From positions 1-25,595 of IMG/VR virus record IMGVR_UViG_3300042430_002308: 25,595 nt of DNA. One strand, given 5' to 3'. The DNA comes from a virus. Below are positions 3,159-25,530 of the stretch, piece after piece (positions within the stretch are counted from its first letter, which is position 1; the number at the start of each line of letters is the position of its first letter). The notes beneath the pieces were generated by a model. It searched no databases, was not told the origin of the DNA, and worked only from the letters and a program-made list of their open reading frames with translations. The position numbers and the translations under genes are program-made.

Positions 3159-3637
3159 CCTCATACGACCACCCCGGCAGACCAACCAAGTTCAACAAAG
3201 AACGCTGCGACAAAATAATCACCGCACTCCAAGCAGGCAACTACCGAGAAGTAGCCTGCCGCTACGCAGGCATAAGCAACCAAACACTCCGAAACTGGTT
3301 GAAACAAGCCGAAAACCCCGACGCACCACCAGAATACCTAGCATTCTTAGCCGCAATAGAAAAAGCAGAAGCCGACGCAGAAGTCGCAGACATAGCCCTC
3401 ATCCGCAGATCCGCCCAAGACGGACAATGGCAAGCCGCCGCATGGATTCGTGAACGCAAGAACCCTGAACGGTGGGGGCGTAGGGACGCATCGAAGATTG
3501 AAGTTACTGGCGCTGACGGTGGCCCTGTTGATATGCGGGTTACGTTAGGTGTTGACTCGTCTGCGATTGAGAGTTTGGCTATGAAGTTGGAGTCTCGTCG
3601 TCGTGCTGTTGAGGCTGATTCGACCGAACTTGAGTAG
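3140..3637 (+). CDS. Phage terminase small subunit-like HTH protein
   Basis: 165 aa. The N-terminal part (residues about 15-55) holds a helix-turn-helix of the small-terminase type (REVACRYAGISNQTLRNWL). A Glu/Ala-rich helix and the segment AAAWIRERKNPERWGRRD follow; this layout is typical of phage small terminases and related HTH packaging proteins. Such proteins bind the packaging site and hand DNA to the large subunit, which here lies 7.4 kb away on the other strand. A generic phage HTH regulator is the alternative. The oddest feature is codon use: A/C-ending codons to about position 3445, then almost exclusively G/T-ending to the end, which suggests a recombination joint inside the gene. 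The start overlaps the ParB gene end by 19 nt. Confidence 0.7.
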   Translation: MPTPPITSYDHPGRPTKFNKERCDKIITALQAGNYREVACRYAGISNQTLRNWLKQAENPDAPPEYLAFLAAIEKAEADAEVADIALIRRSAQDGQWQAAAWIRERKNPERWGRRDASKIEVTGADGGPVDMRVTLGVDSSAIESLAMKLESRRRAVEADSTELE

Positions 3638-6323: not shown

Positions 6324-6562
6324 TAGAAGATCACCTCGGTTACTGGAATCAAAAGTGAAGTGTTGCCGTTGATCGTGATGTCGATTGCACGCTCAACCTT
6401 CGCTCGTGCAGGTGCGCTGCGCTCCGCTGCGGCTTTGGTGTCGAAGACCCCGTACTCGCAGTTGGAGAACCAAACGTGAATGTCGTTTGACTCAATATCG
6501 AAGTGGCGGCTGACCTCTGTGGTCACTGTGAACCGTGGTGTGTTTACTTTGATCGTTGTCAT
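6323..6562 (-). CDS. Hypothetical 79-aa protein
   Basis: Starts MTTIKVNTPRFTV; the ATG at 6562 has an AGGAG six bases upstream, which decides against the longer frame to 6658. The composition is strand-helix-strand: FTVTTEVSRHFDIESNDIHVW, a short helix DTKAAAERSAPARAKVERAI, then a hydrophobic strand (TSLLIPVTEVIF). The middle segment (VWFSNCEYGVFDTKAAAERSA) echoes the strand-then-helix pattern of the tandem paralogues downstream, so all three may share an ancestral fold. This is not provable by eye. Confidence 0.65.
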   Translation of the reverse strand: MTTIKVNTPRFTVTTEVSRHFDIESNDIHVWFSNCEYGVFDTKAAAERSAPARAKVERAIDITINGNTSLLIPVTEVIF

Positions 6563-6607
6563 CTTGCTTGCTCCTTGGTTGTGAACTTGGTTGTGATTGT
6601 AATGGGT

Positions 6608-6635
6608 GGGTGTGACACTTTGTCGTGCCACACCC
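6608..6635. other. Intergenic hairpin
   Basis: GGGTGTG and CACACCC pair around a small internal mismatch and a CAC/GTG continuation. It lies between two minus-strand genes (stop at 6646, next start 6562) but lacks a U-run on that strand. An attenuator or processing hairpin is more likely than a terminator. Confidence 0.5.
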
Positions 6636-6645
6636 GCTTGAGGTT

Positions 6646-6939
6646 TTAGTTGACGCACTCGGCGTTGGCCCGACGAGCGAAGTCAATCTCCGCTTGCGTG
6701 AATCCGGCGCAAGCTGCGATCTCCCGGTCGATGCGATCCGAGTGAATCGCTCGGGTGCAAGTTCCGCCGCTCATTGCGATGAACAGTGCGAACACTGTCT
6801 CCTGTGCGTTTGTCCGGCGCGTTGCAATCGCTCGGATGGCGAATGCCTCGTCGGTGTTGTTCGCAGCGGCATCCGCTGCGATGGTCGCACGGTTGCAGTA
6901 GTTGTTGTTGATTGTCTGGATGATCTCGGTCGATGTCAT
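6646..6939 (-). CDS. Hypothetical 97-aa Ala-rich protein, leaderless
   Basis: Starts MTSTEIIQTINNNYCNRAT. The ATG at 6939 sits seven bases after a -10 (TAACTT), the same geometry and the same MTST start as the gene at 4616, so I prefer it over the longer frame to 6987. The protein is mostly helical and alanine-rich (IAADAAANNTDEAFAIRAIA). Four cysteines are scattered without a metal-site pattern. It heads the minus-strand run that ends with the second methyltransferase. No family is recognised. Confidence 0.65.
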   Translation of the reverse strand: MTSTEIIQTINNNYCNRATIAADAAANNTDEAFAIRAIATRRTNAQETVFALFIAMSGGTCTRAIHSDRIDREIAACAGFTQAEIDFARRANAECVN

Positions 6940-8505: not shown

Positions 8506-8523
8506 GTTGTTGTTGGTGATGAG

Positions 8524-8548
8524 GGGACCGGGTAGCTCCGGTCCCTTT
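8524..8548 (+). terminator. Rho-independent terminator after DUF932 gene
   Basis: GGGACCGG, a GTAGCT loop, CCGGTCCC, then TTTGT. This eight-pair stem with a short U tract lies 18 bases after the stop. Confidence 0.8.
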
Positions 8549-8588
8549 GTCGCGTGTCGGCTGGGTGTGCTGGCGGCTCCGATTTGGC

Positions 8589-8606
8589 GTGTGACAAGAG
8601 TCACAC
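8589..8606. promoter_or_regulatory. Perfect palindrome upstream of the first large RNA
   Basis: GTGTGAC, AAGA, GTCACAC: a seven-base perfect inverted repeat just upstream of the putative RNA promoter. It could be an operator or the base of a hairpin; no U-run follows. Confidence 0.55.
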
Positions 8607-8620
8607 CATTTGGATTCGCA

Positions 8621-8642
8621 TAATGTCAGACACCTGTAGTAT
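8621..8642 (+). promoter_or_regulatory. Probable promoter of the first large RNA
   Basis: ATAATGTCAGACAC, TAGTAT (-10 at 8637-8642), then TTATCTACAT. The sequence aligns with the spacer and downstream part of the recurrent promoters at 4624 and 6947 (ATAATGTC ... TATCTACAT), but the A-rich upstream box is missing. Confidence 0.5.
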
Positions 8643-8819
8643 CTTTATCTACATAAGGAAGTGAGCAGTACGAACCGGAGACACAACCGGGGGCGAATCG
8701 CAGCAAGACGCACAAAGCGTGTAGCGGATTCCGGGTGACACACCACCTCAAGGAAATGTGACGGTTGCACACTCAGCAACAGAAACAGCGAGTGCTAGTT
8801 AGATTCTGTTTGATACCAG

Positions 8820-8900
8820 AAGACGATTGAAGTGCAAGAAGTAGCCCTCGGGTGTAAGCCTTCCTCTCCTAAGACATCCTCAGTACGGCTTCCTCAACAG
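8820..8900 (+). repeat. Tandem RNA motif, copy 1
   Basis: This copy starts AAGACGATTGAAGTG and shares with copy 2 the blocks GTAAGCCTT, CTCTCC and AGTACGGC. A small hairpin GCC-CTCG-GGT here corresponds to GTC-GAAA-GAC in copy 2, so two pairs change with pairing kept. This favours RNA structure. Confidence 0.7.
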
Positions 8901-8941
8901 TAACTAGAATGACTCAAGTTGAAACTTGCGGTATCGGACCC

Positions 8942-9020
8942 AAGACGATTGAGGTGACCAAGTAGTCGAAAGACGTAAGCCTTGCTCTCCCAACACATCC
9001 CTAGTACGGCACCTCCGCAG
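8942..9020 (+). repeat. Tandem RNA motif, copy 2
   Basis: The second copy lies 122 nt after the first. GAGGTG near its 5' end pairs with CACCTC near its 3' end, closing the motif around the GAAA-capped hairpin. Confidence 0.7.
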
Positions 9021-9203
9021 CAACTTGAGTGGTTGGTCAGTGGAATCGTCTGGAGACAGACAGGCACACAGAGTCAAGTGAAAGCGTCGTCAAGAGCGTA
9101 ATCACCGAAGCGTATTCGGTCGGGGAGCAAGGCAGCCCGATGTTGCGTCACAGGGATAGAAACTTGCAGCTCTTATTCAGAACATCGGTTTCACTGACCA
9201 ACC

Positions 9204-9264
9204 AAAAGAAATATCAAACAATCTTCTGTTTCGACTTGCGGACTGTAGTCGTATCGACTACTGT
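9204..9264 (+). promoter_or_regulatory. Recurrent boundary promoter element (copy c)
   Basis: AAAAGAAATATCAAACAATC, a variant CGACTTGCGG (-35 TTGCGG 9236-9241), 17 nt, then TACTGT (-10, 9259-9264). The predicted start falls at the first base of the closing helix of large RNA 2. Confidence 0.75.
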
Positions 9265-9268
9265 CTTG

Positions 9269-9981
9269 TGTGTGGGGGAGCAACAGCCTCACAACAGCAA
9301 CTTGAAAACAGAGACAAGCTTGAGCGGCTAAGAGATCAGCAAGGCCCCCACGCAAAGAACGGGACATTCCAAACCGGTAACAACGTGACAAACCTTCAAC
9401 AGACTCTTAGCTCTCAAGAAAGCAATGAGCGTCTTATAGGTCGCTCACGCAATTAGCAGCACCAGTCAAAGTTCAGCAGATGTCCGCAAGTCGGAAACTG
9501 TCGGCAGCGGCGACTGGCAGTAGGAACCTGAGTTAGGTACCTGAACAGCAGCTACGACAGTGCGGAAACCAAGATGGTTCCGGGGTTTACGAGTTCTCCT
9601 CGAACGCTGCGGATCGAAACTGGAAGGGTGATAAACACTGAAGTCTTTAGCTGACACCGATCCATACCGCCCTACGCTAATCAAACGGACTAATTACCCG
9701 GAGCGTGAGTAACCTATAAGGCATTCAATGCCAAGCGATCTTGACCGGACGGCCATTAGGCGACAGCAGAAATGCTGTTCATTGCGAAACGGTCAAGTAC
9801 TGAATCTTGATGAGATATGCGGAGTTCGTCGGGTCACTCCCAAACGATCCAAGCGTCAACTCAAGATTCAAGGGGAGTCCGGTTAGGCCGGTATTCCGCA
9901 GACAAGCACCTAGCCCGCGTGTCGTGCGCAAGGGAGAGACCGCCGCTGGACTGTAGCCCGGAAAACCGGATTCCCCACACA
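9269..9981 (+). ncRNA. Large structured RNA 2 (about 0.7 kb, closed by terminal helix)
   Basis: TGTGTGGGGGA (9269-9279) pairs with TTCCCCACACA (9971-9981), a long-range helix closing 713 nt. Its 5' strand coincides with the predicted transcription start. Inside: CTTGACCG with CGGTCAAG (about 9739 and 9790) enclosing a GACAGCA-GAAA-TGCTGTT hairpin; GGCAT-TCA-ATGCC; GAATCTTGA with TCAAGATTC; GGAAACC with GGTTCC; GTTC-TCCTC-GAAC. No ORF has an RBS or motif. Further hairpins (CCGCC-GACT-GGCGG, ACCGT/ACGGT) continue to 10177, so the transcript may extend that far. Size, ornate pairing and phage setting recall GOLLD or ROOL RNAs, but the family is unassigned. Confidence 0.75.
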
Positions 9982-10177
9982 TTCGTTTAGATCATTCCAA
10001 CTAGAGAAAGCAGGTGCAGTTTGAGCAACACCGCCGACTGGCGGAGAGCAGAAGGGTGAGTCCACACCGGAAGTTGACCTACCGGACCGTTGAGCTTGAC
10101 GGTGAAATGGGCGTGTGGCATCCAATGGAGCTTGACCAGTCATTCAGTGCCAGTCGTGAAGGCTGGGGTTGGTGCCG

Positions 10178-10238
10178 AAAAGAAATATCAAACAATCTTG
10201 ATTATTGACTTGACATGTGTAGTCGCATCGACTATCTT
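10178..10238 (+). promoter_or_regulatory. Recurrent boundary promoter element (copy d, best match)
   Basis: AAAAGAAATATCAAACAATC, then TTATTGACTTGACA (-35 TTGACA 10210-10215), 17 nt, TATCTT (-10, 10233-10238). This is the closest copy to a consensus sigma70 promoter in the window. Confidence 0.8.
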
Positions 10239-10638
10239 TATGGGGGTAAGGCAATACAACCTAAAGAACCGGAACGACCGGGGAGCATGGCGGCTAGGGT
10301 CCGCACACCAAAGACTCTCAAGTACAGGAATCAAGTTCTTAGATGATGAACTTGGAACCGCAGAAGTACCGGGCTGATCGCCAAGTGAAGCGCCCTACGG
10401 CACACAGAGATGTGCTTATGAAGGTGGTGGATGGATGTTGACATAGCGCGAGTGAATGCGGAGAACGGTGAAAGCAACTAGTTCTGAGGTGAAGCGGTGC
10501 GTGCGCACAATCCGTGGAGTAGTAAGAACGAAAGCAAGTAGCCGGTCCAAGAGCATCTTCTAAGAACTTGATTCGTAGGACCGTTGAGTTAGCGGGAAGA
10601 TATACTTCCCGCCAGTTAGCCATTCCCTACCCGGTGGA

Positions 10639-10660
10639 GCGTTGTTGGTGCATCTCTCCC
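10639..10660 (+). repeat. 22-bp direct repeat inside large RNA 3, copy 1
   Basis: GCGTTGTTGGTGCATC plus TCTCCC; an identical copy starts at 10705, 66 bp downstream. Both lie inside the loop closed by the 16-pair helix, possibly equivalent arms of the RNA. Confidence 0.85.
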
Positions 10661-10704
10661 CTCCCGGCTAGGTAACGAGCTTCTGATGTGAAGCGAAGAT
10701 GGGC

Positions 10705-10726
10705 GCGTTGTTGGTGCATCTCTCCC
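10705..10726 (+). repeat. 22-bp direct repeat inside large RNA 3, copy 2
   Basis: Identical to 10639-10660. The sequence between the two copies is unrelated to the sequence after the second. Confidence 0.85.
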
Positions 10727-10990
10727 GCCGCTCTTCCTGCTAACTCAACGGTTCTGCGATCAACAAGCAGTACAGGCAAAAAGCAGCACAGGGAATATCG
10801 CCTGAAACAAAGTCCCGCCGCTGAACGAATCTTCCGGTGTTCCAAGGGTTGTAGACCTCGGGTGACAGAAGATAGGAACCCACCTGCAAGGGCGGTTGCA
10901 GGCACCCCCAATGGTGCAAAAATTTGGCGGTATCAACCGATGCCGACAGAAGGACGTATTGCCTTCTCGGTTAGTCAGCAAGATGGCTTC

Positions 10991-11025
10991 AGCCCCTCCA
11001 CAACGGAGGGGCTTCTTGCATTTTT
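10991..11025 (+). terminator. Intrinsic terminator of large RNA 3
   Basis: AGCCCCTCC, ACAAC, GGAGGGGCT, then TCTTGCATTTTT. A nine-pair GC-rich stem; the T-run overlaps the stop codon of the convergent terminase gene, so it could also limit transcription from that side. Confidence 0.85.
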
Positions 11026-17670: not shown

Positions 17671-17832
17671 TCAACGACCTTTAGACTTCTTCGCCCGTAA
17701 CGCTGCACGCCGCTGCTCACGGTTCTGTTTCACAGGACGGTTCCGCCGCAACAACTCGGTAGCCGCTTTATAAACGTCAAGCATCGGGTTATCAACCGGA
17801 GGGTCAACCTCTACAGGAGGTTCAGGTTCCAC
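17671..17832 (-). CDS. Small basic protein (53 aa)
   Basis: The GTG at 17832 shares its G with the TAG of the RHH gene. The protein has an acidic, proline-rich N-terminus (MEPEPPVEVDPPVDNP) and a strongly basic helical C-terminus (ELLRRNRPVKQNREQRRAAL, RAKKSKGR). The basic tail suggests nucleic-acid binding or interaction with the acidic tail of the co-translated RHH protein. No family is recognised; coupling makes the gene credible. Confidence 0.65.
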   Translation of the reverse strand: MEPEPPVEVDPPVDNPMLDVYKAATELLRRNRPVKQNREQRRAALRAKKSKGR

Positions 17833-18218
17833 TACGCATCAAGAGATGCAAGAGCTGCTGCGATGCGTTGAGCAACAGTCAGTTCAACCGGAGGCTCAAC
17901 TGCCGCATCGTACTCAACAGCCGCTACTGCTGCTTCAACAGCGATGTCGCTCGGCGGGCGAGGCGCATCTGCTACAGGCTGCACTTCAACCGGGTTCAGT
18001 TGAAGCGGCTTAGGCTCAACCACCGGCGCTGCTTCCAAACGCATAACGAGTGAACGCAACACTGCGGATCGCGACTCGCCCTTCGCTTTAGCCCAACCGT
18101 CAAGAAGTGCGATCTGGTTTTCGCTCAGACTGAACGAGTAGGTCTTGAGTGGTTCGTCTGTTTTGAGGGGACGGCCTGACTTGCGTTGCTTCATTGGTTG
18201 TACTGTTTCTGATTCCAT
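17832..18218 (-). CDS. Ribbon-helix-helix (CopG/Arc-like) DNA-binding protein
   Basis: 128 aa. Residues about 24-62 (LKTYSFSLSENQIALLDGWA, KAKGESRSAVLRSLVMRLE) show a strand, helix, turn, helix pattern with SRSAVLRSL as the second helix, typical of RHH dimers. The tail is acidic and Ala/Pro-rich (VEPPVELTVAQRIAAALASL) and probably flexible except at its end. It likely binds DNA as a dimer and may regulate phage promoters; the GCGTCCA motif before its own gene and before two others is a candidate operator. Translationally coupled to the 53-aa protein. Confidence 0.8.
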   Translation of the reverse strand: MESETVQPMKQRKSGRPLKTDEPLKTYSFSLSENQIALLDGWAKAKGESRSAVLRSLVMRLEAAPVVEPKPLQLNPVEVQPVADAPRPPSDIAVEAAVAAVEYDAAVEPPVELTVAQRIAAALASLDA

Positions 18219-20177: not shown

Positions 20178-20186
20178 TCCGAATTA

Positions 20187-20400
20187 GAAAATTCGCGCTG
20201 GCCCGCCGCCCCGCCGCCCCCTAGAAAACTCGCGCTGGCTGGGCCGCCGTTTATCCGGGGCCGGACTGGGCCGGACTGGGCCGCCCACCCGCCCGGAAAT
20301 TCGCGCTGGCCGCCGCCGCCCGCCGCCCGGAAAACTCGCGCTGGCTGGGCCGCCGCTGCCGCCCGCCCGCCGCCGCCCGCTTGGGGCTGGGCTGGGCTGG
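20187..20400. repeat. GC-rich repeat block (GAAAA[T/C]TCGCGCTGGC, four copies)
   Basis: GAAAATTCGCGCTGGC at 20187, GAAAACTCGCGCTGGC at 20224, GAAATTCGCGCTGGC at 20296 and GAAAACTCGCGCTGGC at 20330. Copies alternate T and C at one position, as if a two-copy unit was duplicated. Between them are GCC/GCCGCC runs, GGACTGGGCC doublets and a GGGCT repeat (20385-20406). No gene is supported. Confidence 0.8.
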
Positions 20401-20406
20401 GCTGGG

Positions 20407-20592
20407 TTATCCACAGGCTGTGGATAAACCTGTGGATAAACCTGTGGATAACTCTGGGGATAACCGGATCGAACAGGTGTTCTGTGGATAAACCTGTGGA
20501 TAACTTGTGGATAACTTTGATCGAACATTCGTTTGGGGAACGGGTGTTCTGTGGAAAAAGTTGTGGAAAACCTGTGGAAAACCTGTGGAAAA
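20407..20592. other. DnaA-box array (left), candidate origin or DnaA-titration site
   Basis: One TTATCCACA at 20407 and six TGTGGATAA at 20419, 20431, 20443, 20483, 20495 and 20506 are perfect DnaA boxes. Most lie 11-12 bp apart, about one helical turn. A TGGGGATAA variant is at 20455, and degenerate TGTGGAAAA copies follow at 20550, 20562, 20573 and 20584. Such density is known from bacterial origins and DnaA-titration loci. Confidence 0.75.
20470..20549. promoter_or_regulatory. SOS-box-like palindromes in the left DnaA array
   Basis: CGAACAGGTGTTC (20470-20482), CGAACATTCGTTTG (20522-20535) and GAACGGGTGTTC (20538-20549) resemble the Gram-positive LexA box CGAAC-N4-GTTCG. They sit between DnaA boxes. 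Confidence 0.55.
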
Positions 20593-20700: not shown

Positions 20701-21070
20701 TCACGAGTTCGGCAGATGTTTTGCATGAGCCGAGAGCGCCACACGAGCCGACCATGAGAGAGCCGAGAGCGAGAGAGCGAGAGCAACCACGAGCCGACCA
20801 CGAGCCGACCACGAGAACGAGCGCGCCATGAGAGAGAGAACACGAGCCGAGAGAGAACAGAGAGCGCCACGAGAACAGAGAGCAACCACACGAGCCACGA
20901 GAGCGCCACACGAGAGCCGAGAGCAAGAGAGAGCGCCACGAGCCACGAGCCGACCACGAGAGCGGCATGAGAGAGCGAGAGCGGCACAAGAGAGAGAGAA
21001 CCATGAGAGCGCCATGAGAGAGCCATGAGAACACGAGCCGAGAGCCGACCATGAGAGAGCGAGCCGAGAG
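20701..21070. repeat. Low-complexity spacer A (GAG/CACGAG words, T-poor)
   Basis: 370 bp built from short words ending in GAG: CCGACCACGAG, CGCCACACGAG, AGCGCCACGAG, AACACGAG, AGAG. T is almost absent on the plus strand, mainly in CATGAG variants of CACGAG. Stop codons are rare, so long frames appear on both strands, but none is protein-like. Confidence 0.85.
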
Positions 21071-21253
21071 CCAAAACGACCGTTTTGGGCTGATTCCAAA
21101 AGATTTCTTTTGGTGCAAAACCCCCTAGTTCTAGGGGTAAAACCGCTGTTCCAAAAAGAATCTCGCATTTTGCTATTGCTTATGTGTGGAATCTTTGCTT
21201 TGATGTAGTCACACCAACAACACGAGCCGAGCGGCTCGGGAAGAGAGAGCAGA
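21071..21253 (+). promoter_or_regulatory. Cassette 1 upstream module
   Basis: CCAAAACG-AC-CGTTTTGG palindrome (21071-21088), CCAAAA-GATTTC-TTTTGG palindrome (21096-21113), CCCCTAG-TT-CTAGGGG palindrome (21122-21137), AAAAAGAATCTCGC, -35 TTGCTT (21176-21181), 17 nt, -10 TTTGAT (21199-21204), ATGTAGTCACACCAACAAC, and a CGAGCC-GAGC-GGCTCG hairpin (21223-21238) before the ATG. Confidence 0.8.
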
Positions 21254-21553
21254 ATGAAAGCACATCCGGCACACCTAGCAAATCGGGCAAAGCTTGCTAA
21301 GAAGATGGCGACAGAAATCGCCACTATCGGCAAAAACCCCGAGTACTTGACCGATTCTGAGTGGACTGAAATCGCCAAAAACGCTGGCGGCAAATCGGTT
21401 CCGTCAGTTTCGACTAGGGCGCTAGTCATGGAAATCGCTGAAGCGGCTGAAGCGGCTGAAGCGGCACCAAAATACGTTGATCTCAACTCTTACTATGTTG
21501 AAGAGTTCTGTCATTCACGAACAAATCAATGGGGTGAGGTTGAATACGACTGA
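21254..21553 (+). CDS. Cassette 1 protein, hypothetical (99 aa)
   Basis: Sequence MKAHPAHLANRAKLAKKMAT, then a middle helix and a triple EAAEAAEAA (residues about 61-70, DNA GCTGAAGCG tandem repeat), ending in a Tyr/Glu-rich tail (YYVEEFCHSRTNQWGEVEYD). The N-terminus is basic and the C-terminus acidic. No family is recognised. It lies between the cassette promoter module and a strong terminator, so it is a single-gene transcription unit. Its codon use and T content are ordinary, in contrast to the surrounding spacers. The RBS is weak (GAGAGAG), so the 5'UTR hairpin may matter for translation. Confidence 0.75.
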   Translation: MKAHPAHLANRAKLAKKMATEIATIGKNPEYLTDSEWTEIAKNAGGKSVPSVSTRALVMEIAEAAEAAEAAPKYVDLNSYYVEEFCHSRTNQWGEVEYD

Positions 21554-21567
21554 ACCACACGAGCCAC

Positions 21568-21607
21568 GAGCGCCGACCAAAAAGGTCGGCGCTCATTCTC
21601 GTTTTTG
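21568..21607 (+). terminator. Cassette 1 terminator
   Basis: GAGCGCCGACC, AAAAA, GGTCGGCGCTC (11 pairs), then ATTCTCGTTTTT. Confidence 0.9.
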
Positions 21608-22040
21608 CGAGCGCCACACGAGCGCCACGAGCGGCTGGGAGAGCCACGAGAACGAGAGCGGCACGAGAGCCGACCACGAGAGCCGAGAGCGGCACCACGA
21701 GCCGACCATGAGCGGCACGAGCGAGAGAGCAACCACGAGCCGAGAGAGCCACGAGAGAGCAACCACGAGAGCGGCATGAGCCGAGAGCAAACACGAGCCA
21801 CGAGAGCGGCACGCGCCGCTGGGTATCTGCCACGAACACGAGCGGCACACGAGAGCAACCATGAGCGAGAGCCGAGAGCCGACCACGAACCACACGAGAG
21901 CGGCACACGAGCGCGCTGCTGGGCGAGAGCGGCACACGAGCCGAGAGCGAGAGCCGAGAGCGAGAGCGGCACCACACGAGAGCCGAGAGAACCATGAGCC
22001 GAGAGCCGAGAACGAGCAACACGAGAGAACGAGCGAGAGC
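21608..22040. repeat. Low-complexity spacer B
   Basis: Same word set as spacer A. It also holds GGCTGGGAGAGCC (21630), GCGCCGCTGGGTATC (21813) and GCGCGCTGCTGGGCGAG (about 21912), members of a GCTGGG motif that recurs in the later spacers. Confidence 0.85.
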
Positions 22041-22230
22041 GCGAAAACTGCCGTTTTGGAGCGATTCCAAAATATTTCTTTTGGTGCAAAACCCGCTAGT
22101 TCTAGGGCGAAAACCCCGGTCGAAAAAAGAATCTCGTGTTTTGCTATTGCGTATCTTTCAAATCTTTGCTTTGATGTAGTCACACCAACAACACGAGCGG
22201 CACCAACTGCTCGGGAAATGAGAAAAGAAA
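22041..22230 (+). promoter_or_regulatory. Cassette 2 upstream module
   Basis: AAAAC-TGCC-GTTTT (22044-22057), CCAAAA-TATTTC-TTTTGG (22067-22084), CTAGTTCTAG core, AAAAAAGAATCTCG, -35 TTGCGT (22147-22152), 17 nt, -10 TTTGAT (22170-22175), and a CGAGC/GCTCG hairpin (22194-22213). Order and spacing match cassette 1. Confidence 0.8.
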
Positions 22231-22515
22231 ATGTACGAACTACTGACAGCCTGCACGTTTGCCCAAACAATGCGCACACTTTGCAACTGGCCGATCAACG
22301 CATCCTACGCACTGTTTGAGCTTATCGAAGCGGCAGAAGAAGAAGGCCAAGGGGTTGAATTCGATCCAATCGCATTCGATCAAGAATGGATGTTTGCGGC
22401 AGACTTGGAAGAGATCAACGAGAACTACGGCGAAAATTTCGACTCGCTTGACGCTCTCAACGATATGACTTTTGCAGTCGAATTTTGCGACGGGATTCTG
22501 TTCCAAGCGTTCTAG
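22231..22515 (+). CDS. Cassette 2 protein, highly acidic (94 aa)
   Basis: By my count 20 Asp/Glu and one Arg in 94 residues, no Lys: a net charge near -19. Helical segments: ASYALFELIEAAEEEG, FDQEWMFAADLEEINENYGE, DSLDALNDMTFAVEF. Such acidity in a small phage protein is typical of DNA mimics (for example Ocr and several anti-defence proteins); this is a property match, not a homology call. Single-gene unit between the cassette 2 promoter and terminator. Confidence 0.75.
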   Translation: MYELLTACTFAQTMRTLCNWPINASYALFELIEAAEEEGQGVEFDPIAFDQEWMFAADLEEINENYGENFDSLDALNDMTFAVEFCDGILFQAF

Positions 22516-22529
22516 AAAACGAGCAACGA

Positions 22530-22566
22530 GCGCCGACCAAAACGGTCGGCGCTTGTTGCCGTTTTT
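22530..22566 (+). terminator. Cassette 2 terminator
   Basis: GCGCCGACC, AAAAC, GGTCGGCGC (9 pairs), then TTGTTGCCGTTTTT. Confidence 0.9.
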
Positions 22567-23104
22567 GGCACGAGCCGAGAGCGGCACCACGAGCGCTGGG
22601 TGAGAGCCACGAGAGAGCCGAGAGCGGCACGAACGAACACGAGAGCGCCATGAGCCGAGAGCAACCACGAACGAGCAACCACGAGCCACGAGAGAGCCAC
22701 ATGAGCCGACCACGAACGAGAGCGGCACCATGAGCGCCACGAGAGCGCCACACGAGCCACGAGAGCGAACAGAGAACACGAGCGCCGACCACGAACCACG
22801 AACGAACACGAGCGGCACCACACGAGCCACACGAGCGCGCTGCTGGGTGAGAGCCGAGAACCACGAGCGGCACGAACCACGAGCCACACGAGAGCCACGA
22901 GAGCGGCATGAGAACGAGCGCCACACGAGAGCGCCACGAGAACCACGAGAGAGCCACACACGAGCGCCACGAGCCACGAGAGCGGCACTAGGACGAACCA
23001 CGAGCGAGAGCGCCATGAGCCGACCACACGAGCGCCACACGAGCCGAGAGAACGAGAGAGCGAGAACCACGAGAACACGAGCGGCACAAGAGAGCCGAGA
23101 GCGG
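22567..23104. repeat. Low-complexity spacer C
   Basis: 538 bp of the same words. GAGCGCTGGGTGAGAG (about 22588) and GCGCGCTGCTGGGTGAGAG (about 22836) repeat the GCTGGG motif once early and once mid-spacer. Confidence 0.85.
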
Positions 23105-23291
23105 CAAAACGTCCGTTTTGGACGTATTCCAAAATATTTCTTTTGGCGTGAAAACCCCTAGAACTAGCGGCAAAACCCCGGTCAGAAAAAGAATCTCGCA
23201 TTTTGCTATTGCGTATAGTCAAAATGTTTGCTTTGATGTAGTCACACCAACAACACGAGCGGCACGAGCCGCTCGGGAATGAGAGAAAAAA
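23105..23291 (+). promoter_or_regulatory. Cassette 3 upstream module
   Basis: CAAAACG-TC-CGTTTTG (23105-23120), CCAAAA-TATTTC-TTTTGG (23129-23146), CCCCTAG-AA-CTAGCGG (core inverted relative to the other cassettes), -35 TTGCGT (23209-23214), 17 nt, -10 TTTGAT (23232-23237), and a CGAGCGGC-ACGA-GCCGCTCG hairpin (23256-23275). Confidence 0.8.
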
Positions 23292-23558
23292 ATGAAGCTG
23301 TCAGACATCATCACCATCCGAGTTTGCCTCAACTGCCTCCAAATGATCGCTGATGGCGATGACTCGGGAATGAGCGAAGCCGATTCGATTGCATGCCAAA
23401 AAGGGATCGAAGAACTAAGCAAGGATTTTGATCTGGTTCCGGCTTCGGATTGGTTCTCGGGATCATTCAGCCGCAACTTGTGCGAATGTTGTGACGCTCT
23501 CGCCGGAGATCGGGAAGAACTCCAACTACTGCCAAAACGAGAGGATCAACTAGGCTAG
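23292..23558 (+). CDS. Cassette 3 protein, cysteine-rich (88 aa)
   Basis: Starts MKLSDIITIRVCLNCLQMIA; CLNC near residue 12 and CECCDALAGDREEL near 64-77 form a likely metal site, separated by an acidic middle. Small actinophage proteins with a CxxCxxxxANGD start and a CxxCxxxLxGxRH end are common; this fits that general pattern, which has no known function. Single-gene unit like its sister cassettes. Confidence 0.75.
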   Translation: MKLSDIITIRVCLNCLQMIADGDDSGMSEADSIACQKGIEELSKDFDLVPASDWFSGSFSRNLCECCDALAGDREELQLLPKREDQLG

Positions 23559-23571
23559 AACGAGCGAGAGC

Positions 23572-23610
23572 GAGAGCCGACCAAAACGGTCGGCTCTCGT
23601 TCTAGTTTTT
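23572..23610 (+). terminator. Cassette 3 terminator
   Basis: GAGAGCCGACC, AAAAC, GGTCGGCTCTC (11 pairs), then GTTCTAGTTTTT. Relative to cassettes 1 and 2 the outer stem changes from GCGCC/GGCGC to GAGAGCC/GGCTCTC with pairing kept. Confidence 0.9.
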
Positions 23611-24078
23611 GGATCCAACGAGAGAGCGCCACGAGCGCCACACAAGACTGGGCGAGAGCCGAGAGCGGCATGAGCCACGAGCGGCACCACACGAGCCGAG
23701 AGCGGCACGAGAGAGAGCGAGAGCAAGCACACGAGCCGAGAGCCGAGAGAGCGGCACCACGAGCCACGAGAGCGCCACGAGCGGCACGAGCGGCACGAGA
23801 GCCGACCACGAGAGAGAACGAGCCGAGAGCGGCACCACACGAGCGCCACACGAGCGCTGGGTGAGAGCGGCACGAGCCGACCATGAGCCGAGCGCCGACC
23901 ACGAGCCACGAGAGCGCGCGAGAGCGCTGCTGGGTGAGAGCGCCGACCACGAGCCGAGAGCCACGAGCGCCGACCACACGAGAGCGCCATGAGCGGCAAG
24001 CGAGAGCCGAGAGCGAGAGCGGCACGAGAGCAACATGAGCGGCACCACGAGAGCCGAGAGCAACATGAGCCGAGAGCG
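23611..24078. repeat. Low-complexity spacer D
   Basis: 468 bp of the same words, with GCTGGG-type motifs at about 23646 (GACTGGGCGAGAG), 23853 (GCGCTGGGTGAGAG) and 23924 (GCGCTGCTGGGTGAGAG). Confidence 0.85.
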
Positions 24079-24267
24079 CCAAAACGACCGTTTTGGAGCG
24101 ATTCCAAAATATTTCTTTTGGGGCAAAACCCCCTAGTTCTAGCGGCTAAATCGCTGTCAGAAAAAGAATCTGGTGTTTTGCTATTGCGTTCTGTTCCAAT
24201 CTTTGGTTGAATGTAGTCACACCAACAACACGAGCGGCACGAGCCGCTCGGGAATGAGAGAAAAATC
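24079..24267 (+). promoter_or_regulatory. Cassette 4 upstream module
   Basis: CCAAAACG-AC-CGTTTTGG (24079-24096), CCAAAA-TATTTC-TTTTGG (24104-24121), CCCCTAGTTCTAGCGG, AAAAAGAATCTGG, -35 TTGCGT (24184-24189), 17 nt, -10 TTGAAT (24207-24212), and a CGAGCGGC-ACGA-GCCGCTCG hairpin (24231-24250). Confidence 0.8.
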
Positions 24268-24594
24268 ATGGCAATCCACGAAGTACTCGCCAACCAAATG
24301 ACCGCACACGAGCTACTGCTCAACATCCGTTCGATCGGCTACTACACAACAACAAACAACGTACATGGAAATCCTCGCCGGGTGTTCGTTGGTTACAACG
24401 AGAACGGCACGAAAGTCATCACAACTGACGAAGGATACGCCGGAACGCCTAAGTGGGTTCGCACTCTCAACGCTCAAGGTGTTGGCACTCACACTTTGGC
24501 GGTTGAGCCGAAAACGTACAACGCTCTTGTGCGCGAAATTCCAGCGCTTCAGCGGGCAATCACTGCCGAGCTAAAAGCAATATTCAAGGACTGA
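24268..24594 (+). CDS. Cassette 4 protein, hypothetical (108 aa)
   Basis: Sequence MAIHEVLANQMTAHELLLNI, a strand-rich centre (GNPRRVFVGYNENGTKVITT), then PKWVRTLNAQGVGTHTLAV and a C-terminal helix (TYNALVREIPALQRAITAEL). Roughly neutral, with no Cys. No family is recognised. Single-gene unit with its own promoter module and the longest terminator of the set. Confidence 0.75.
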   Translation: MAIHEVLANQMTAHELLLNIRSIGYYTTTNNVHGNPRRVFVGYNENGTKVITTDEGYAGTPKWVRTLNAQGVGTHTLAVEPKTYNALVREIPALQRAITAELKAIFKD

Positions 24595-24602
24595 CGAGCC
24601 GA

Positions 24603-24645
24603 GAACGAGAGCCGACCAAAACGGTCGGCTCTCGTTCTAGTTTTT
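24603..24645 (+). terminator. Cassette 4 terminator
   Basis: GAACGAGAGCCGACC, AAAAC, GGTCGGCTCTCGTTC (15 pairs), then TAGTTTTT. Confidence 0.92.
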
Positions 24646-25213
24646 GGGGAGAACGAGAACGAGCGGCACGAGCGGCACGAGCGGCACGAGCTGCTGGGTG
24701 AGTGCCATGAGCGAGAGCCACGAGCCACGAGAGAGAACGAGAGCGGCACCACGAGCGAGAGCCAACGAGAGCCGACCACGAGCCACGAGAACGAGCGAGA
24801 GAGCGCCACACGAGAGCGAGAGCCGAGAGCGAACAGAGAACACACGAGAGAGCCATGAGCGCCGACCACGAACGAGAGCGCCACGAGAGCCACGAGAGCG
24901 AACGAACACGAACGAGAGCCACACGAACCACGAGCCGAGAGCGGCACGCGCTGCTGGGCCACGAGAGCGGCACACGAGAGCCGAGAGAGAGCCACACGAG
25001 CGGCACACGAGCCACACGAGCGAACGAGCCACACGAACACGAGAGCCGACCACGAGCCGCACACGAACACGAGCCAAGAGAACGAGCGAGAGCGGCACGA
25101 ACGAACCACGAACAGAGAGAGCCGACCACGAGCCGAGAGCGAACACGAGCGGCACGAACGAGAGAGCCGAGAGCGCGCCGACCACACGAACGAGAGCGAA
25201 CAGAGAGAGCCGA
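24646..25213. repeat. Low-complexity spacer E
   Basis: 568 bp of the same words with GCTGCTGGGTGAGTG (about 24691) and GCGCTGCTGGGCCACG (about 24948). It has no cassette after it and ends at the boundary motif. Confidence 0.85.
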
Positions 25214-25223
25214 TAGCGCGCGC
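25214..25223. repeat. Right boundary motif of the cassette block
   Basis: TAGCGCGCGC, the inverse of 20677-20686. The non-repetitive CCTACTGTCTCACCTATTGC follows before a short further stretch of spacer-type words to about 25345. Confidence 0.4.
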
Positions 25224-25356
25224 CTACTGTCTCACCTATTGCCACAACATGAGAGCCACATGAGAGCGAGAGCGAGAGCCGAGAACGAGCCGAGAACAAG
25301 AGAGCGAGAGCCGACCACGAGCGCCGACCACGAGCCGAGAACAGCGAACAAGGTTG

Positions 25357-25530
25357 GGGATAAACCTGTGGACAAACTGTGGATAACTTTTGCCTGTGGA
25401 AAACCTGTGGAAAACTTTTCTGTGGATAAAGCTGTGGACAACCTGTGGACAACCTGTGGACAACTTTTCCGAACAAATGTTCGTCGAACAGGTGTTCTGT
25501 GGATAACTCTGTGGAAAAACCTGTGGATAA
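25357..25530. other. DnaA-box array (right)
   Basis: Perfect TGTGGATAA at 25378, 25421, 25498 and 25522, with degenerate TGTGGACAA and TGTGGAAAA copies between them at about 12-bp pitch and a GGGGATAA at 25357. Same orientation as the left array. Confidence 0.75.
25470..25497. promoter_or_regulatory. Double SOS-box-like palindrome
   Basis: CGAACAAATGTTCG (25470-25483) is a full match to the Gram-positive LexA consensus CGAACRNRYGTTCG. CGAACAGGTGTTC (25485-25497) follows directly and is identical to the left-array copy at 20470. Both sit between DnaA boxes. Confidence 0.65.

Follow-up and report, generated by a model that had tools for sequence, protein, structure and literature searches.

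Four insulated and probably co-regulated single-gene units form an array in an uncultured tailed phage

Why does a phage place each of four unrelated small genes behind its own copy of one regulatory unit? This question is raised by the 25.6 kb of DNA from an uncultured virus analysed here (the window, positions 1-25,595 of IMG/VR record IMGVR_UViG_3300042430_002308), in which four units of ~1 kb stand in a row at 21071-24645. Judged from its sequence, this array is a real and unusual set of four insulated single-gene units, which are probably co-regulated, old and stable between the two lineages known to carry them. Among the explanations weighed below, we favour, with a probability of roughly 0.6, a four-member accessory-gene regulon that arose by ancient duplication of one regulatory unit and persists as a stable set in an uncultured tailed phage of probable actinobacteria. 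The array would be a compact natural example of a phage that, instead of extending an operon with further genes, multiplies a complete expression unit.

Anatomy of the four cassettes

A preliminary description of this DNA had proposed four single-gene expression cassettes of ~1 kb with a repeated order of elements, and this was borne out. The units start at 21071, 22042, 23104 and 24079 (spacing 971, 1062 and 975), and each runs through three dyads, an A-rich box, a promoter, a leader with a hairpin, one small open reading frame (ORF), the cargo, and a strong intrinsic terminator, with T-poor spacers between the units:

21071-21137, + strand: cassette 1 operator block (dyads 21071-21088, 21096-21113, 21122-21137)
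21176-21204, + strand: cassette 1 promoter, TTGCTT-17-TTTGAT with TGn extension (start inferred near 21211)
21223-21238, + strand: cassette 1 leader hairpin
21254-21553, + strand: cargo 1, 99 amino acids, family MKxHPxHLxNR... (relatives have homologues behind a different shell type)
21568-21607, + strand: cassette 1 intrinsic terminator
22042-22108, + strand: cassette 2 operator block (dyads 22042-22059, 22067-22084, 22093-22108)
22147-22175, + strand: cassette 2 promoter, TTGCGT-17-TTTGAT
22194-22213, + strand: cassette 2 leader hairpin
22231-22515, + strand: cargo 2, 94 amino acids, very acidic (weak match to phrog_9974)
22523-22566, + strand: cassette 2 terminator
23104-23170, + strand: cassette 3 operator block (dyads 23104-23121, 23129-23146, 23155-23170; 67/67 between lineages)
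23209-23237, + strand: cassette 3 promoter, TTGCGT-17-TTTGAT (in lineage B either replaced or highly divergent)
23256-23275, + strand: cassette 3 leader hairpin (two-sided change between lineages)
23292-23558, + strand: cargo 3, 88 amino acids, C-x2-C and C-x-C-C (52% amino acid identity between lineages; weak match to phrog_3034)
23567-23610, + strand: cassette 3 terminator
24079-24145, + strand: cassette 4 operator block (dyads 24079-24096, 24104-24121, 24130-24145; 67/67 between lineages)
24184-24212, + strand: cassette 4 promoter, TTGCGT-17-TTGAAT
24231-24250, + strand: cassette 4 leader hairpin
24268-24594, + strand: cargo 4, 108 amino acids, orphan (low-confidence model, helix-five strands-helix)
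24602-24645, + strand: cassette 4 terminator, the last of the array

Dyad 1, dyad 2, the A-rich box, the promoter, the leader and the terminator each occur in four copies, all on the + strand and in the array only; the sole look-alike elsewhere in the window is a promoter core with three mismatches at 3349 on the - strand. When up to three mismatches were allowed, four copies of dyad 2 were found vs 0.01 expected by chance. The operator block consists of two CCAAAA-N6-TTTTGG dyads followed by one CTAG-NN-CTAG dyad, and all eight sites in the window that match the former with at most one mismatch lie in the array. Relative to the start sites, which were inferred from the sequence near 21211, 22182, 23244 and 24219, the dyad centres fall at -131.5, -106.5 and -81.5, an exact 25-bp pitch in 8/8 cassettes from two lineages, and this dyad and promoter geometry is fixed in the eight cassettes while the spacers gain and lose words. 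The array operator is thus an exactly spaced triple dyad. The promoter (TTGCNT-17-TTTGAT) has an extended -10 with a TGn extension and is followed by a constant ACACCAACAACACGAG leader containing the hairpin. We propose that a putative dimeric DNA-binding protein probably recognises the three dyads, spaced 25 bp apart, and controls the activity of this one promoter.

The leader stem is paired in every copy, with a C-G to G-C flip at one pair, and the terminator stem of 11-16 pairs, followed by a T run, shows an A-U to C-G exchange at one pair. Such two-sided changes with pairing kept, among seven distinct sequences, support both stems but fall short of proof. None of the four cassette ORFs (0/4) has the AAGGAG-type (AGGAG) ribosome site that many other genes of this phage have, and each cassette has its own promoter and its own terminator around one gene. 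Each unit would therefore read as a stand-alone transcription unit, whose short message would begin with a stabilising hairpin, lack a strong ribosome site, encode one small protein and end at a strong terminator. Because each gene has its own start hairpin, a single ORF and a strong terminator, each would be insulated from its neighbours. The regulatory shells had been described as near-identical; as paralogues they are 83-85% identical to each other.

Classical morons are single insertions with unrelated promoters, transcribed independently and often during lysogeny, and present or absent at a given place between otherwise similar genomes. The array shares with phage morons the small gene that has its own promoter and terminator and would be independent of its neighbours, but differs in having four such units in a row, all on one strand, under closely similar copies of a single operator-promoter unit and with conserved T-poor spacers between them. 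Moron loci that have a promoter of their own are described in PMC7067206. Like the array, the start-associated sequences (SAS) and extended SAS (ESAS) of cluster K mycobacteriophages are conserved repeated elements that precede many unrelated small genes of an actinophage, in some cases with inverted repeats: SAS is a 13-bp element (GGGATAGGAGCCC) at the translation start, to which ESAS adds 17-bp inverted repeats (PMC3203893). The array unit, in contrast, extends over three fixed-pitch dyads, the promoter and the leader as far as the terminator, with the genes in a compact array, and reading by eye did not find the 13-bp SAS at start codons in the cassette leaders. The 17-bp palindromic repeats of cluster O mycobacteriophages are also dyad-symmetric and taken as sites for dimeric proteins, and recombination between them has been linked to gene loss (PMC4351075); they are, however, scattered, partly inside genes and for the most part away from promoters, whereas the array dyads stand at a fixed distance from promoters and in the array only.

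A further comparison is with the Frpo-driven anti-defence genes of conjugative plasmids (PMC11541004), in which homologous folded promoter units likewise precede unrelated small genes. If the array promoters were Frpo-like, they would serve DNA that enters or replicates single-stranded, the dyads would act as hairpins, and the clusters of DnaA-box-like sites flanking the region (see below) would mark the origin. Consistent with this, the dyads form hairpins in a consensus fold, and the fold of one strand exceeds shuffled sequences in stability (z -4.4). However, Frpo pairs -35 and -10 in single-stranded DNA, whereas the array promoters are not consistently paired: in single-strand folds the -35 stays largely unpaired (paired fraction 0.17-0.44 in 7/8 copies), no fold pairing both -35 and -10 is common to the copies, and the dyads lie far upstream of the promoter. 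We therefore regard single-stranded promoters as extremely improbable here.

Age and stability of the set

By its gene set (terminase subunits, a head-morphogenesis protein, a DnaB-like helicase and a replication protein), the window virus is a tailed phage. Because the nearest named relatives of its DnaB-like, DUF932-like and terminase proteins are mainly phages of Gordonia, Mycobacterium, Streptomyces and Microbacterium (all <60% identity), the host is probably an actinobacterium. A leader scan of 2.9 million viral contigs and a separate scan with dyad 2 returned the same four records (L011, L013, L014/L018 and L009). Over the array side, L011 and the window are 99.9% identical, and the other records form a second lineage (lineage B), which is ~85% identical to the window and 99.6-99.8% identical internally; L013 spans all four cassettes. 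The shell had no match in 84,980 GTDB species genomes, INPHARED phages or PLSDB plasmids, and the window terminase had no relative in GTDB. Single-copy shell matches in L010 and L012, as well as four spacer-word matches (L054-L057), were dismissed as chance matches. Searching with the terminase gave array-less relatives (G011, G012, G008, G009 and L022). A T-poor stretch near 64.7 kb of G012 was rejected as an array; it lies inside a long open reading frame and lacks a shell. The array is present in both lineages covering its locus, and the contigs of G011 and G012 end at dnaB ahead of it. These two contigs come from the same sample, and both break off near codon 367 of dnaB, directly ahead of the part that bears the array in the window (G011 at its end, 53346; G012 at its position 1).

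The preliminary description had taken the locus for an exchangeable cargo array, and had named in advance the number of cassettes and the diversity of cargos in related phages as the test of this idea. In the sole other lineage, L013 carries these four cargos in unchanged order, with no gain or loss, which counts against gain and loss of cassettes. The operator blocks agree at 62, 66, 67 and 67 of 67 bases with those at the same position in the other lineage, and at 50-61 with those of other cassettes; over the 156-base shell, 87 quartet-site patterns group the copies by position vs 6 by genome. Because the operator blocks group by position, the duplication is older than the lineage split, and the four copies have kept their places since. 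Concerted evolution of whole shells was accordingly rejected for the operator block and is seen in the core promoter only, where the -10 region is common within genomes (TTTGAT in window cassettes 1-3, TTAGAT in lineage B cassettes 1, 2 and 4). Short conversion tracts would give such genome-specific sharing.

Cassette 3 differs from this pattern. Between the lineages its dyads are identical, its promoter core is only ~60% and its protein 52% identical, and identity is back at 100% shortly ahead of the stop codon, so that a divergent segment with sharp edges lies between flanks that are 96-100% identical. This looks like allele replacement of a promoter-plus-gene segment, which would explain the sharp edges. 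An array that actively exchanges its cargos, with shells and spacers as homology arms for swapping, gaining and losing whole genes, would account for this mosaic, for the genome-specific core promoter segments and for the single-gene exchange seen at another shell type in relatives (see below). Nevertheless, the cassette 3 alleles are homologous rather than unrelated, the operator blocks cluster by position and not by genome, and cargos that differ between relatives within constant shells are not found in the array, where cassette 3 shows an allele change only. Of the proposed exchange, then, what may hold within the array is one event that looks like a replacement with its junction in the shell. 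Ongoing turnover is not shown, the observed set being stable between the two lineages apart from cassette 3, and we consider an actively exchanging array unlikely. In the regulon that we favour, cargos would have been brought under array control in the past, and since the two lineages split the set would have changed only by replacement of the cassette 3 segment.

Several points weigh against this reading. The array is known from two lineages only (~85% identical), and most array-bearing contigs end inside it. Cassette 3 does not clearly exceed cargo 1 in synonymous divergence (0.86 vs 0.70), and therefore rapid divergence of cassette 3, instead of replacement, is possible. Finally, the regulator is so far only a candidate, a ribbon-helix-helix protein encoded at 17832-18218.

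Cargo genes and shared promoter shells in relatives

The ratio of nonsynonymous to synonymous substitution rates (dN/dS) between the lineages is 0.08 for cargo 1, 0.15 for cargo 2, 0.43 for cargo 3 and 0.04 for cargo 4, which indicates that the four ORFs are real genes. As described at the outset, the four proteins have no visible similarity to one another. Cargo 2 is indeed very acidic (20 D/E vs one R, counted from the sequence), and in cargo 3, for which a metal site had been suggested, the cysteine pairs C-x2-C and C-x-C-C are kept in both lineages and could form one. Cargos 2 and 3 weakly match PHROGs of unknown function (phrog_9974, E 2e-4, and phrog_3034, E 7.5e-5, respectively). No cargo matched a PADLOC or NCBIfam family, and none matched Pfam above its curated cut-offs. 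Cargo searches in phages gave no matches, and a search of the viral collection with cargos 2, 3 and 4 found only the already known array contigs. The same three proteins have no related solved structure (cargo 1 was left out of the structure search); the models of cargos 2 and 4 (mean predicted local distance difference test score, pLDDT, 50 and 62) were too poor to use, and the best PDB match of the cargo 4 model had E 0.12.

These results bear on the suggestion that the cargos act in host takeover or anti-defence, as an island expressed at entry like the SPO1 host takeover module (PMC6873191). Both loci are clusters of small phage genes with strong promoters, and in the array the individual promoters, the very acidic protein and the conserved cysteine pairs would suit such a role. 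On the other hand, the SPO1 genes stand in operons, are early, and several have been shown to slow host growth, whereas early expression of the array cargos and effects on their host would be conjectural. The empty family and structure searches and the weak PHROG matches also weigh against a takeover or anti-defence island, which is a guess and in our view improbable.

Evidence for movement of genes comes from a different, sister shell, which consists of a GGGTGTGGCAC..GTGTCACACCC hairpin, a TACAAT-like -10 and a TCACAAC..AAGGAG leader before one small gene, and which occurs as dispersed copies in the array-less relatives. A simple pattern found nine leader-plus-gene sites in G011 and seven in G012, most of them with the hairpin or a promoter part; the window has one:

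6563-6630, - strand: sister shell, single copy in the window (hairpin, promoter, leader, AAGGAG)

At the o6646 locus, the sequences are alike up to the hairpin and change in or after the leader, and the gene that follows o6646 and the sister shell differs: the window has o6323 there, G012 and L022 have a cargo-1-like gene, and G011 has METQ, for which neither G012 nor L022 gave a match. The cargo 1 family thus stands behind the sister shell in G012, L022, G008 and G009, and behind the array shell in the window. Because one family occurs behind both shell types and different genes occur behind the same shell, genes have moved between control units in the clade, likely with shared promoter units as joints. 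Further, G012 has two same-direction sister shells 17.7 kb apart, after o6646 and before the o6323 homologue, and joining them (8600-8860 and 26340-26570) reproduces the window gene order at 6480-6700. This points to recombination at the shell as the origin of the difference, with either order possibly the older. Single-gene exchange at promoter shells is thus a process that occurs in the clade. The idea of shells as recombination joints is therefore supported elsewhere in the clade, where the junctions are clear, but at a different shell from that of the array. These relatives suggest a concrete, testable way for phages to shuffle small accessory genes, through exchange at shared promoter units.

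T-poor spacers and flanking sites

The units are separated by ~350-700 bases composed of 3.2% T, 31% A, 31% C and 35% G and built of repeated words such as GAGAGC, CACGAG and GAGCGGCAC:

20723-21070, no strand: T-poor word-repeat spacer 0, upstream of cassette 1
21608-22041, no strand: T-poor spacer 1
22567-23103, no strand: T-poor spacer 2 (lineage B has 220 bp more; largest indel 116 bp)
23611-24078, no strand: T-poor spacer 3
24646-25340, no strand: T-poor spacer 4

In their aligned parts, spacers 0-3 are 92-96% identical between lineages and spacer 4 is 78% identical. Spacers 0 and 1 are ~95% identical by blastn alignment vs ~71-79% at fourfold sites of most nearby genes, and 28/193 spacer substitutions involve T. 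A coding role was rejected, because most indels are not multiples of three (indels include 1, 2, 11, 20, 38 and 116 bases) and there is no phase in the substitutions. The word repeats of the preliminary description stand, but these spacers are not simply low-complexity, being almost T-free, conserved and non-coding. Their conservation points to selection or a special mutation process, and they form an unexplained sequence class that changes more slowly than fourfold-degenerate sites nearby.

On either side of the array and its spacers lie clusters of further sites:

20407-20592, no strand: left cluster of DnaA-box-like sites (TGTGGATAA / TGTGGAAAA), with LexA-like GAACNNNNGTTC boxes at 20471 and 20538
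25378-25530, no strand: right cluster of DnaA-box-like sites, with LexA-like boxes at 25471 and 25486

In the whole window, exact TTATCCACA/TGTGGATAA sites number 11 vs 0.11 expected, and GAACNNNNGTTC, the core of the Gram-positive LexA site (PMC2248561), occurs four times vs 0.32 expected; all of these sites lie in the two clusters, which may act in replication or in the response to DNA damage. Immediately to the left of the left cluster, at 20181-20400, is a GC-rich repeat tract (AAATTCGCGCTGGCCGCC...) that is 92% identical between lineages.

The locus might accordingly be a replication or partition locus with the cassette genes as passengers, in which DnaA boxes, LexA-like boxes, dyads and T-poor repeats would together form an origin or a DNA-binding platform. 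The presence of both kinds of site on both sides and spacer conservation above that of nearby fourfold sites (~0.95 vs ~0.71) are consistent with this. However, promoter, leader hairpin, ORF and terminator all appear clearly selected as an expression unit, and G012 has four DnaA boxes beside its replication gene instead; we find such a locus quite improbable. More speculatively, and in our view improbable too, the array could be a dedicated landing zone, in which the fixed-pitch operator would control interchangeable units, the almost T-free spacers would insulate them, and the DnaA and LexA clusters would let copy number or DNA damage tune the set. If so, the spacers would be a selected insulator, with almost no start or stop codons, no -10 elements and no AT tracts for a xenogeneic silencer.

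Two other regions of the window are of separate interest. Between the DUF932-like gene and the terminase, 8506-11020 comprises ~2.5 kb without a convincing gene. It is 94-97% identical between lineages, with stretches of 78-96% identity in more distant relatives, and had no match in Rfam up to E 5 except one at chance level; it is a candidate for a large non-coding RNA. At 376-1998, on the - strand, a single protein combines DNA methyltransferase regions with a threonine-dehydratase-like domain (a pyridoxal phosphate, PLP, enzyme) between them, and this region is 90-96% identical in G011, G012 and G008.

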